DNA from: Candidatus Undinarchaeales archaeon
GTDB lineage: Archaea > SpSt-1190 > JASMDC01
DNA: 64,000 nt
Assembly: GCA_030753015.1 (NCBI GenBank)
Contig: JASMDC010000012.1
Location: forward strand, 28,734-92,733
Direction: 5' to 3'
Shown here: positions 11,336 through 21,594 of the stretch, one piece after another
Numbering within the stretch: position 1 is the first letter of the stretch
How the letters are laid out: each line of letters starts with the position of its first letter
Notes under the pieces: generated by a model
Database searches by the model: none
What the model was told of the DNA's origin: nothing
The model's input: only the letters and a program-made list of their open reading frames with translations
Program-made: the position numbers and the translations under genes

Positions 11336-11911
11336 TCACCAGTTCTCGGCAAGGAGCTGGAAGTGTTCCTGACCATGGGCGCAGGCGGGGCATTCCGCGG
11401 GGGCCTCGGGCCCCTCGTGGACGTATCCGCAGTTGTCGCACTTCCACTTCACCGACCGGTCCTTCTTGAACACGGTGCCGTTCTCGATGTTCGCAAGGAG
11501 GCCGAGGTAGCGCTTCTCATGCTGCTTCTCGGCGACGGCGATGGACCGCATGACCGCAGCGATCTCTGGGAAGCCCTCCTCGTCAGCGATGTCGGCGAAC
11601 CCCGGGTACATGGTGGTGTGCTCGAAATTCTCGCCGGCAGCGGAGGCCTTGAGGTTCTCGGCGGTCGAGCCGATGATACCTGCAGGGAAAGCCCCGGTGA
11701 TCTCGACCTCGCCTCCCTTGAGGAACTCGAAGAGCTTCTTCGCATGCTCCCTCTCATTGTCGGCCGTCTCCAGGAAGACGTTCTGGATCTGGACGAAGCC
11801 GTCCTTCTTGGCCTTGGAGGCAAAGAAACCGTAGCGGTTCCGTGCCTGGGACTCTCCAGCGAACGCTGTGAGTATGTTCTTTTCGGTCTTTGTTCCTTTC
11901 AGTTCAGGCAT
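11336..11911 (-). CDS. rbr: Rubrerythrin
   Basis: 191 residues starting [14 protein letters not shown], with AGGTGA seven bases before the ATG. The N-terminal four-helix diiron domain shows [12 protein letters not shown], the EREHAKKL motif and [10 protein letters not shown]. The C-terminal rubredoxin-like domain shows [10 protein letters not shown] and [11 protein letters not shown]. Rubrerythrins reduce hydrogen peroxide with electrons from rubredoxin or NADH-linked donors, and a rubredoxin gene occurs in the divergent arm. It is the last gene of the minus arm of the redox island, 39 nt after the superoxide reductase gene, whose product makes the peroxide that rubrerythrin removes. Confidence 0.96.
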
Positions 11912-11950
11912 TTTCAATTCACCTTCTCAGACAGAGTTATGGTCATCACT

Positions 11951-12340
11951 TCAGACCTTCGCCGACCATAGGCCGTGGACAGTACAGTACTCCCTGACCA
12001 GAAAGACCTTCTCGGCGGTACAGTTGCAGAAAAGGGCCTCAGGTGCCTGCCCCGGTTTCAGGAACGCTTTGTGCGTACCCGTGTCCGTGACTAGCTCGAT
12101 CATTTCGATGTAGTGCTCAGCCTCCATCGGATGTGCCACAGAGCCCACGGTCACCTTGAGTCCGGTATCTGTATCCTGCACTACGGGCACATGCTTCTCC
12201 TTGCCCTGGTCTTCGTTCTTTCCGGGAAGCAGTGTCATCCGCTGGCCGCAGCACACAAGCTCGGCGCCACCTCCGTGGATCAGCTCAACGATGTTCCCGC
12301 AAAACTCGCACTCATACACTTCCAATCGGTTCGTCGTCAT
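11951..12340 (-). CDS. dfx: Desulfoferrodoxin (superoxide reductase), two-iron type
   Basis: 129 residues. The N-terminal desulforedoxin-like domain has CEFC (11-14) and LVCCGQRM, the four Cys for the FeS4 centre. The C-terminal neelaredoxin domain has EKHVPVV, VGSVAHPMEAEHYIEMIEL and CTVHGLW, which supply the His4Cys iron site that reduces superoxide to peroxide without releasing oxygen. AGGTGATT precedes the ATG. It lies between iscU and rubrerythrin genes in the same direction, so superoxide removal, peroxide removal and Fe-S assembly appear co-transcribed. Confidence 0.96.
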   Translation of the reverse strand: MTTNRLEVYECEFCGNIVELIHGGGAELVCCGQRMTLLPGKNEDQGKEKHVPVVQDTDTGLKVTVGSVAHPMEAEHYIEMIELVTDTGTHKAFLKPGQAPEALFCNCTAEKVFLVREYCTVHGLWSAKV

Positions 12341-12361: not shown

Positions 12362-12826
12362 TCAAGCTTTATTATCAGTACCCGCCGGAGGGTGGGGCGT
12401 ATCACAGCTATCACAATCATGGTCGCAGCTAGCGTGCACGGTGTGTTCTCCATTCCGTGCCCTGTAGTCCTTGATGGCCGCGTGCAGGGCATCGGCGGCG
12501 AGGTTCGAGCAGTGCATCTTCTTGGGCGGGAGCCCGTCCAGTTCGTCCGCCACGTCCTGACGCGTGATCTTCATGGCCTCGTCCACGTGCATGCCCATGG
12601 CCAGCTCGGTGACCATGCTGCTCGTGGCGATGGCAGAACCGCACCCGAATGTCCGGAACTTGATCTCGGAAATGATGTCTTCCTTGACGTTGATGAAGAT
12701 CTCCATGAGGTCGCCGCAGACAGGATTACCTACCTTCCCGTAGCCGTCAGCTTCCTCGATGACGCCGACGTTGCGGGGATTCATGAAGTGCTCCATCACC
12801 TTCTTGCTGTAGCCGATTTGTGTCAT
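12362..12826 (-). CDS. iscU: IscU/NifU-like Fe-S cluster assembly scaffold
   Basis: 154 residues. The three scaffold cysteines are present: NPVCGD (Cys37, with the conserved Asp39), FGCGSAIA (Cys62) and MHCSNLA (Cys106). Beyond the usual length there is a short tail with three more cysteines (CDHDCDSC, 134-141), which is unusual and could bind a metal. GGTGGTCAC precedes the ATG. It lies 12 nt after the IscS-like gene, the usual partner order, though that IscS has lost its PLP lysine. The role is to build and hand on Fe-S clusters in the cytoplasm. Confidence 0.95.
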   Translation of the reverse strand: MTQIGYSKKVMEHFMNPRNVGVIEEADGYGKVGNPVCGDLMEIFINVKEDIISEIKFRTFGCGSAIATSSMVTELAMGMHVDEAMKITRQDVADELDGLPPKKMHCSNLAADALHAAIKDYRARNGEHTVHASCDHDCDSCDTPHPPAGTDNKA

Positions 12827-12838
12827 GTGACCACCTTC

Positions 12839-13990
12839 TCATAATGGGGATAGGTTTCTTAACCTTTCGACTGTGCCCCGGGCGGCGTCGACCACCGCGG
12901 GCACCTGGGCCATTGTGTTTGACCGTCCGAGGGTGAGCACCATGGACCCATGTGCCTGCTCATGCTTGAGCCCTATAGCGAGGAGTACATGGGACGCCTC
13001 CAGCGTGCGCGAGGTGCAGGCCGAGCCGGTGGCCATGGCGATACCGTACATGTCCATGCTCAGCAGGATGCTCTCGCCTTCGATCCGGCCGAACCGGAAA
13101 CTGGCGTGATGGGGTAATCGTCGCTCGGGATGACCGGTAAGATGGGAGTCCTCGATAGCGAGGATGCCTTTGACAAGCGCGTCCCTGACACCCTGCAACC
13201 GATTGCTCTCTTTGGCCATCTCGTCCCGGGCCAGACGGGCCGCTTCTCCCATCCCCGCGATGGCGAACACGTTCTCGGTACCCGAGCGAAGACCCTGCTC
13301 CTGGCCGCCGCCGGGGAGCACCGTCTGGAGCTTCACACCGGGAGCAACATAGAGGGCGCCGGCACCGGGCGGCCCCCCCATTGCATTCCCGGAGAGGGTG
13401 AGCAGGTCGATACCGTCCCGCTGGACATCGATGGGGATGCGCCCCGCCGTTGCGGTGGCGTCCACATGAAGGTATCTGCCCTTCTCATGGACTATCGTGG
13501 ACACTTCCTTGATGGGTTCGATGGTGCCGATCTCGTTGTTGGCGTACATGACCGAGGTCACAACGGTGGCATCGGTCAACAGCCCCTCCAGCGCCCCGAG
13601 GTCGATGAGCCCCCTCCCGTCCACCGGAGCGAGGGCCAACTCGAAACCATGCTTAGCGAGGTCCTTCATTGGATTGAGCACGGAGATGTGCTCGATGGCG
13701 CTGGCCACCACGGCCTTTCCCTTGCCCATATTCCGGATAGCGGTACCCCTTACGGCGAGATTGTTCGCCTCAGTGGCGCCGCTCGTGAAGATGAGCTTGC
13801 CCTTCTCATCGGCATTGATAAGAGCGGCAAGCCGTTCCCGAGCGTCCTCCACCGCTTGCTTGGTACCGAGACCGTCCGAGTGCAGAGATGATGGATTCCC
13901 GACGTCCTCTACGAGGTACCTCTGGGCAAAGGCGAGGACCCGCGGGTCCACTGGTGTCGCCGAGCCATGGTCCAAGTAGATTCGGTCCAT
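12839..13990 (-). CDS. iscS: IscS/NifS-like cysteine desulfurase homologue lacking the PLP lysine
   Basis: 383 residues from ATG 13990 (MDRIYLDHGSATPVD); a GTG at 14014 is an alternative. The fold motifs are clear: TSGATEANNLAV, the His of SAIEH, MYANNEIGTIEPI, GGGQEQGLRSGTENV and the sulfur-carrier Cys in GSACTSRTLEASH. However, the segment that normally reads SxHKxxGPKG reads SGNAMGGPPG: the PLP-binding Lys is Ala (codon GCA, 13382-13384) and the preceding His is Asn. The normal DATQ is DATA. PLP chemistry is therefore unlikely. A. fulgidus IscS is known to have Asp at this Lys position. The protein may act as an IscU partner supplying a Cys ligand where free sulfide is available. Confidence 0.93.
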   Translation of the reverse strand: MDRIYLDHGSATPVDPRVLAFAQRYLVEDVGNPSSLHSDGLGTKQAVEDARERLAALINADEKGKLIFTSGATEANNLAVRGTAIRNMGKGKAVVASAIEHISVLNPMKDLAKHGFELALAPVDGRGLIDLGALEGLLTDATVVTSVMYANNEIGTIEPIKEVSTIVHEKGRYLHVDATATAGRIPIDVQRDGIDLLTLSGNAMGGPPGAGALYVAPGVKLQTVLPGGGQEQGLRSGTENVFAIAGMGEAARLARDEMAKESNRLQGVRDALVKGILAIEDSHLTGHPERRLPHHASFRFGRIEGESILLSMDMYGIAMATGSACTSRTLEASHVLLAIGLKHEQAHGSMVLTLGRSNTMAQVPAVVDAARGTVERLRNLSPL

Positions 13991-14004: not shown

Positions 14005-14367
14005 TCAGAACCACATGGCCGCGTTAGCGTCCAGGGCGAGGTCATTGAGGGTGGCGGCTCCGACGATCTTGACGCCGTCCCGCAGCTCAACCTTCTCCCA
14101 GCCGAGCATCCGCTTTGAGGCTTCGCACACGTAAACGGGGATTCCCATCTCGACGGTCTTCTGGAGCATCTCGCCCACGCTGGGGAAGTCGCCGAGCTTG
14201 ATCTTCTCGGCCTCTCCCGGCCGCAACACCTTTAACGCCATCCCGAGGTAGTACACAATAGGTTCAAGGTCCATGGCCTTTGCCGTCTGTGCAAGGACCA
14301 GGGGTGAGTACTGCCGCTCGGGCGCATCGCTCGTCTGGACATAGAGGATCGATTTTTCGTTCTTCAT
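14005..14367 (-). CDS. DsrE/DsrF-like sulfur-relay family protein
   Basis: 120 residues with the small alpha/beta DsrE fold: ILYVQTSDAPERQYSPLVLAQTAKAM at the N-terminus, a GMALKVL helix, and the conserved Cys in GIPVYVCEASKRML (about 81). Family members carry persulfide sulfur or are of unknown function. It is the first gene of the minus arm, with AAGGAGATC before the ATG and a promoter shared with the divergent PerR-type regulator. Its stop overlaps the start region of the IscS-like gene. Together with TusA at the far end of the other arm it suggests a sulfur-relay theme. Confidence 0.8.
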   Translation of the reverse strand: MKNEKSILYVQTSDAPERQYSPLVLAQTAKAMDLEPIVYYLGMALKVLRPGEAEKIKLGDFPSVGEMLQKTVEMGIPVYVCEASKRMLGWEKVELRDGVKIVGAATLNDLALDANAAMWF

Positions 14368-14450: not shown

Positions 14451-14492
14451 GTAGTAATCATAACAAATCATGTTATTGGAGTGCACGAAATC

Positions 14493-14924
14493 ATGGCCGA
14501 TGATGCGATCGAACGCGGAGTGAAGCTTCTCAGGGACCATGGATTGAAGGTGACGCCCCAGAGGCTCGTGATCCTTCGATACCTTGAGAAATATCGTAAT
14601 CACCCTAATGCGGACGAGATCTACAATGCCCTGAAGTCACGGAATCCCTCGCTCTCGAAGACGACCGTCTACAATACACTTGAGACTATGCATAAGCAAA
14701 GGCTCGTCGATGTACTGACTATATCTGAGTCCGAACGCAGGTACGACCTTAGACGAGAGTCCCACCATCACTTCATGTGTCAGGAATGCGGGCGGATCCT
14801 CGACATAGAGATCGCATGCCCGAACTGTCACCGGATCATAAACGGAGAGCACCGGGTCGACGAGGTCCACGGTTACTTCAAAGGAATCTGCAGCGAGTGC
14901 CTGACCAAGGAAGATAAACTATGA
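14493..14924 (+). CDS. Fur family regulator, PerR-like
   Basis: 143 residues from ATG 14493, with TTGGAGTG about ten bases upstream; a GTG at 14481 is an alternative start. The N-terminal winged helix has GLKVTPQRLVILRYLEKY, HPNADEIYNALK and LSKTTVYNTLETM. The dimer/metal domain has HHHFMCQECGRILDIE, the second pair CPNC, and CSEC near the end, giving CxxC pairs for structural zinc. Regulatory metal ligands cannot be assigned by eye, so PerR versus Fur is inferred from the neighbours, all peroxide/superoxide defence genes. It overlaps the flavodiiron gene by four bases and heads the plus arm. Confidence 0.9.
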   Translation: MADDAIERGVKLLRDHGLKVTPQRLVILRYLEKYRNHPNADEIYNALKSRNPSLSKTTVYNTLETMHKQRLVDVLTISESERRYDLRRESHHHFMCQECGRILDIEIACPNCHRIINGEHRVDEVHGYFKGICSECLTKEDKL

Positions 14925-21348: not shown

Positions 21349-21594
21349 ATGACCCACGATGAAATAACTCCTGCCAAGGAGCTGGATTGTGTGGGCCTCT
21401 ACTGCCCCATACCAATCGCCCAGACCAAGGAGGCCATAGAGACCGTCAAGGTGGGCGAGGTGCTGATGGTGGAGGCCGACGATCCCGCCGCCGAGGAGGA
21501 CATCAAGGCCTGGGCGAAGCATACCGGGCACGAGCTGATGAAAATCGAGCGTGCAGGTTCGATCATGACCTTCTACATCAAGCGTACGAAGTGA
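21349..21594 (+). CDS. tusA: TusA/SirA-like sulfur carrier
   Basis: 81 residues with the signature LDCVGLYCPIPIAQTKEAIE (CPxP, Cys19), VKVGEVLMVEADDPAAEEDI and WAKHTGHEL, which is the full TusA fold. AAGGTGCG precedes the ATG. It carries persulfide sulfur in tRNA thiolation or Moco pathways in bacteria. Here it ends the redox operon and may pair with the DsrE-like protein of the opposite arm. It converges with the next minus-strand gene. Confidence 0.93.
   Translation: MTHDEITPAKELDCVGLYCPIPIAQTKEAIETVKVGEVLMVEADDPAAEEDIKAWAKHTGHELMKIERAGSIMTFYIKRTK

Follow-up and report, generated by a model that had tools for sequence, protein, structure and literature searches.

The window analysed here, a stretch of 64,000 nucleotides from a Candidatus Undinarchaeales archaeon, encodes an IscS-like protein that has lost both the pyridoxal phosphate (PLP) lysine and the arginine that holds the cysteine substrate, yet retains its loop cysteine and lies directly between genes for a DsrE-family carrier and the scaffold protein IscU. 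It belongs to a large kind of lysine-less IscS proteins, whose genes recur in other genomes in the order tusA-dsrE-iscS-iscU. We favour, with moderate confidence, the view that the protein is a pseudo-desulfurase hub of the kind represented by Archaeoglobus fulgidus IscS, which would hand carrier sulfur from TusA and DsrE to IscU and contribute a cysteine ligand.

An IscS homologue with an altered active site

The lysine-less iscS gene is a full-length reading frame (Table 1) with its ATG at 13990, its stop at 12839-12841 and no internal stop, and is as clean as the original prediction had described it. A profile search places the product in the class V aminotransferase family (Pfam PF00266, E 4.7e-69), although it scores below the curated equivalog cut-offs for both NifS (TIGR03402, 415.8 against 530.75) and IscS (TIGR02006, 359.4 against 643.2); its nearest solved relatives are the structures of A. 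fulgidus IscS (4eb5, E 5.8e-124). The PLP-lysine motif reads TLSGNAMGGPPGAG, with Asn and Ala where active IscS has His and the PLP lysine, while DATQ has become DATA (Ala180), GPKG has become GPPG, and His101 (in SAIEH) and Cys325 (in GSACTS) are retained. Codons and alignment agree in every respect with the residue description given in the original prediction. Measured against the features of a group I cysteine desulfurase (IscS/NifS), the protein lacks the PLP lysine and the substrate arginine and has the loop cysteine; of the features of the A. fulgidus type it has a replaced lysine preceded by Asn, Ala in place of Gln, the loop cysteine and an adjacent iscU.

Two trivial explanations were rejected. 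A sequencing error at the lysine site does not account for several pocket positions altered together in frame, in a pattern that recurs in relatives, and isolated decay into a pseudogene is at odds with the loop cysteine and 63-73% identity being retained across distant lineages.

Table 1. Features of the lysine-less iscS locus and its surroundings, in coordinates of the window.
Feature	Position	Strand	Basis or remark
iscS, lysine-less IscS/NifS-type protein, 383 aa	12839..13990	(-)	clean ORF, PF00266, 4eb5 match
Asn202 (13385-13387; His in active IscS) and Ala203 (13382-13384, codon GCA; PLP Lys in active IscS)	13382..13387	(-)	sequence
Ala180 codon, replaces PLP-contacting Gln	13451..13453	(-)	alignment
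Cys325 codon, mobile-loop persulfide/ligand cysteine	13016..13018	(-)	alignment
Val351 codon, replaces Arg holding the carboxylate of the cysteine substrate	12938..12940	(-)	alignment; Cys+26, as SspA Arg340
iscU scaffold, C37, D39, C62, H105, C106, LPPKK; 12 bases after iscS	12362..12826	(-)	PF01592 E 2.5e-49; TIGR03419 above cut-off
dsrE, DsrE-family carrier (Cys81); directly precedes iscS, from which 14 bases separate it	14005..14367	(-)	PF02635 E 8.5e-13
tusA, operon type (DCVGLYCPIP), 81 aa; redox region shared with iscS, non-adjacent	21349..21594	(+)	PF01206 E 2.1e-23
desulfoferrodoxin, follows iscU in the same direction	11951..12340	(-)	PF01880 and PF06397; also neighbours the block in several relatives
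rubrerythrin, follows desulfoferrodoxin on the same strand	11336..11917	(-)	PF02915; near the block in several relatives
Fur-family regulator, divergent from dsrE-iscS-iscU	14481..14924	(+)	PF01475 E 3.1e-29

Lysine-less IscS proteins are numerous and have lost more than the lysine

Genome contigs were scanned and about 930 genomes then searched, which recovered dozens of distinct relatives of the window protein at approximately 46-73% identity, all of them without the lysine; the alignment with archaeal IscS proteins that had been proposed as a check yields a coherent set. Members come from Thermoplasmatota, Halobacteriota and methanogens (Methanothrix, Methanomicrobiales), together with some metagenome-assembled genomes (MAGs) labelled as bacteria. 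For the tree and the column counts we compared 67 distinct lysine-less rows, A. fulgidus IscS included, with 56 lysine-bearing rows. The lysine site is occupied by Asp in 60 of the 67, by Ala, Gln and Ser in two each and by Glu in one, never by Lys, and is preceded by Asn in all 67. The Gln column (180) holds Ala in 63/67 lysine-less rows and Gln in 52/56 lysine-bearing rows. GPPG is also seen in three other members (L130, L174, L179). Alanine is a rare state at a site dominated by Asp, the second Ala row being L046/L125, from a MAG labelled bacterial. The window protein had been put forward as a second, differently substituted case after A. fulgidus IscS; in fact A. fulgidus IscS, Methanosarcina acetivorans IscS1 and dozens of loci share the kind, mostly with Asp.

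In a maximum-likelihood IscS tree built without most of the pocket columns that were counted, the lysine-less state requires a single change, on a separating branch whose support is weak (13). The Gln variants form the sister group of the window protein (support 88). As the second Ala row branches off in another part of the tree, Ala is likely to have originated at least twice.

The losses extend to the substrate site. Column 351 lies 26 residues beyond the loop cysteine, at the position of Arg340 in SspA, where Arg340 and Asn150 bind the substrate carboxylate and the substitutions R340E and N150D impair function (PMC7188994). Arg occupies this column in 56/56 lysine-bearing rows and in none of the 67 lysine-less rows, which have Val, Leu, Gln, Ile or Glu instead. 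The equivalent of SspA Asn150 (Asn152) is relaxed among lysine-less rows and retained in the window; the Asp that contacts PLP N1 has become Asn in seven lysine-less rows and is retained in the window as Asp177. Cys325, His101 and Thr73 are invariant (67/67), and Ser200 is also retained in the PLP pocket. Because the substrate arginine is gone from all 67 rows along with the lysine, the loss of ordinary desulfurase chemistry proposed in the original prediction is more certain than could then be appreciated, and ordinary cysteine desulfuration by the window protein is very unlikely on these residues. For the same reason the A-to-K revertant suggested as an assay would be an unfair test and was rejected as a sufficient one, since restoring the lysine alone, with Val351 still in place of Arg, should not restore activity.

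Erosion of the PLP pocket has gone further in certain sub-lineages (L207-L213, L218, L219; L124, L126), with NATA, in which the pyridine-binding Asp is Asn, or RPGTEN in place of RSGTEN, the loop cysteine remaining. Separately, one family of genomes (f4: L163, L169, L171, L014, L231) carries a second IscS in which the lysine is replaced by Arg or His (SAHRFYGPKG, TAHHFYGPKG). On the tree this protein falls well away from the main body of lysine-less rows, and its gene stands directly ahead of one for a lysine-bearing IscS and a pair of iscU genes; in L163, L169, L171 and L014 a tusA lies between the two IscS genes.

A conserved block of sulfur carriers and IscU

On the (-) strand of the window the order is dsrE, lysine-less iscS, iscU, desulfoferrodoxin and rubrerythrin, with a divergent Fur gene and further redox genes. 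The dsrE is directly upstream of iscS and iscU directly downstream; a tusA directly upstream is absent, and an operon-type tusA lies about 7 kb away, its product at most 68% identical to the TusA proteins of tusA-dsrE-iscS-iscU operons. Relatives have this block too, there headed by tusA. Only loci with 900 or more bases of sequence upstream were counted, 68 lysine-less and 118 lysine-bearing, the latter serving as controls. A tusA is found upstream at 65/68 of the former and 5/118 of the latter, and in four of these five exceptions the genome has another IscS, with Lys replaced by Arg, right beside that tusA. A dsrE is directly upstream at 54/68 lysine-less loci and at 0/118 lysine-bearing ones; Archaeoglobus-type loci have tusA and no dsrE. 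Where a genome has both types of IscS, neither carrier gene was found upstream of the lysine-bearing paralogue (0/24). Fisher p-values for this link were computed without regard to relatedness, and an independent-pairs test offers only one or two contrasts, since the lysine-less rows come close to forming a single clade; the link hence speaks for conservation and gives no evidence of having arisen repeatedly.

The cysteines through which sulfur might pass are kept: DsrE Cys81 in 62/62 rows with a letter at that column, the TusA CP-motif cysteine in 73/73, and C37, D39, C62, H105 and C106 of the partner IscU in 68/68, the window IscU having the three cluster cysteines and the Asp (C37, D39, C62, C106). 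The DsrE/TusA relay suggested in the original prediction accordingly gains strong support as far as conserved gene order is concerned, whereas flow of sulfur from TusA and DsrE to IscU is something we infer.

Some features of these proteins and loci are recorded here for their own sake. The C-terminal tail of the window IscU is rich in Cys and His (HASCDHDCDSC), and the IscU of L181 ends similarly (CVDDCHSC). In 69/73 cases the TusA proteins of the block have one more cysteine, ahead of the CP motif (DCxGxYCPxP). At L235, an Archaeoglobus-type tusA-iscS-iscU adjoins genes for ThiI, a DUF169 protein and a SepSecS-like protein.

Cysteine desulfurases and scaffolds elsewhere in the genome

The window genome (3.85 Mb, 98.9% complete, 5.0% contamination) does contain a lysine-bearing desulfurase candidate, for which the original prediction had advised a search. 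Contig C34 (G000; L230 7102-9567) carries in tandem a lysine-bearing IscS/NifS, with SSHKLHGPKG and Arg at column 351, and a SufS-like protein, and no iscU, tusA or dsrE was found beside them. Contamination is an unlikely source of this copy, C34 matching the window in GC and in tetranucleotides (0.953 against 0.959 within the window). A MOSC-domain gene follows the tandem.

The window IscU is the only NifU_N protein found in the genome, and the SufB/D core was not found in it at 98.9% completeness. About a dozen further genomes (G061, G062, G063, G070, G074, G075, G425, G476, G498, G511, G526, G771) likewise have one IscU, beside a lysine-less IscS, and no SufB/D, absences that are provisional in that some of these genomes are incomplete. 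SufB is present in most Halobacteriota members.

Proposed role and alternative explanations

We propose that the lysine-less IscS would be incapable of ordinary PLP chemistry on cysteine and has been retained as a docking hub, a partner of IscU in both sulfur transfer and ligand supply. Sulfur would arrive as a protein persulfide, moving from TusA to DsrE Cys81 and on to Cys325 of the lysine-less IscS, or there directly, and then to the cysteines of IscU; the lysine-bearing IscS or the SufS-like protein of C34 might charge the carriers in the window organism, or sulfide or polysulfide might do so. Physical contact among these proteins, the direction of flow and the origin of the sulfur are presumed parts of the model. 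Precedents exist for the contacts, since the sites of E. coli IscS for IscU and for TusA have both been mapped (PMC11302051), and for the ligand, since A. fulgidus IscS is reported to be inactive and nonetheless to give a cysteine ligand to the IscU cluster (PMC7585200). The retained cysteine and intact IscU fit that role, and to this extent the ligand or persulfide function foreseen in the original prediction stands; the transfer itself we infer. Against the hub, the association with carriers may go back to one event and have been inherited since, the window tusA is non-adjacent, Archaeoglobus-type loci do without dsrE, and gene order cannot give the direction of flow. A bolder extension, possible but somewhat doubtful, is that the window genome and about a dozen others have a cysteine-independent Fe-S line, in which the sole detected IscU would be served by an inactive IscS hub and TusA/DsrE persulfide, possibly derived from sulfide.

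IscS enzymes are dimers, and both IscS types co-occur in many genomes; a lysine-less copy might therefore pair with the lysine-bearing IscS, or sequester IscU, and so tune cluster assembly under oxidative stress, for which the redox genes that surround the locus in the window and in several relatives would be apt. Such a regulatory decoy is nevertheless very improbable, given that no lysine-bearing group I IscS appears among the matches listed for G061, G063, G070 and G074, and a pure inhibitor is hard to reconcile with genomes whose only IscU lies beside the lysine-less gene. It is even harder to credit that the protein is still a cysteine desulfurase, acting through unbound PLP or another base: His101, Thr73 and Ser200, with Asp177 and Asn152 in the window, could still allow PLP or PMP to bind, but none of the Lys, the phosphate-contacting His, the Gln and the substrate Arg remains, and PMC7585200 describes A. 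fulgidus IscS as inactive.

Where the sulfur comes from and where it goes are the subjects of the other two alternatives. The lysine-less IscS may be only a cysteine ligand and dimeric platform for the IscU cluster, with free sulfide as the sulfur and TusA and DsrE serving something else. This is the proposal published for A. fulgidus IscS, as cited in PMC7585200; it agrees with an invariant Cys325 and with the use of sulfide as the Fe-S sulfur source by Methanococcus maripaludis (PMC7585200, PMC10500019), but we judge it unlikely, because it leaves unexplained why two persulfide-carrier genes stand beside the lysine-less kind of IscS only. Alternatively, sulfur could leave IscU or the lysine-less IscS for DsrE and TusA, to serve tRNA thiolation or cluster breakdown. 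In E. coli, TusA and DsrE-type proteins do move sulfur away from IscS (PMC5372739), and ThiI adjoins an Archaeoglobus-type block; an IscS without desulfurase chemistry has, however, no sulfur of its own to donate, ThiI was seen beside the Archaeoglobus-type block only, and an outward relay is in our estimation quite improbable.

Relation to known systems

Lysine-less IscS proteins are already known from A. fulgidus and, as IscS1, from M. acetivorans (PMC7585200). A literature search combining DsrE, IscS, IscU and archaea found no published report of the tusA-dsrE-iscS-iscU module with a lysine-less IscS, its novelty being provisional, with Garcia 2022, Pagnier 2015, Yamanaka 2013 and Marinoni 2012 outside the coverage; a broader query that included TusA matched only the M. 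acetivorans paper, in which TusA goes unmentioned. Many archaea lack an evident donor of the sulfur in their sulfur-containing products, a matter listed as open (PMC5372739, PMC8351635). If the hub exists as proposed, a conserved four-gene block using sulfur brought by carriers in place of cysteine desulfuration would be a candidate donor route for Fe-S clusters, and the retention of an inactive IscS in A. fulgidus would be explained. Archaeal annotations of 'IscS' can conceal inactive proteins.

The closest known system is the A. fulgidus IscS-IscU pair (PDB 4eb5, 4eb7, 4hvk; 4r5f carries Lys at the site), whose IscS probably belongs to the same lysine-less clade, is 51% identical to the window protein, and shares with it DATA, the retained loop cysteine and the position beside iscU; it has SSND at the lysine site and Leu replacing the substrate Arg. 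The window differs in having Ala instead of Asp, Pro in GPPG and an adjacent dsrE, where Archaeoglobus-type loci have tusA without dsrE. IscS1-IscU1 of M. acetivorans (MA0808-MA0807) is similar in that IscS1 is reported in PMC7585200 to lack the PLP lysine and to lie beside iscU, in a cluster with four genes of unknown function; these neighbours are not named there as TusA or DsrE. The MIS system (MisS-MisU) is likewise a minimal two-gene IscS-IscU pair, found in archaea and some bacteria (PMC12442378), but MisS is described as a cysteine desulfurase, whereas the window IscS is by its residues predicted to be inactive and is linked to carriers. The Tus relay of E. coli (IscS, TusA, TusBCD, TusE, MnmA) employs the same TusA and DsrE-type carrier families with IscS as partner; there IscS is the active source and tRNA the end point, while in the window the IscS is predicted to be inactive and the constant partner is IscU.
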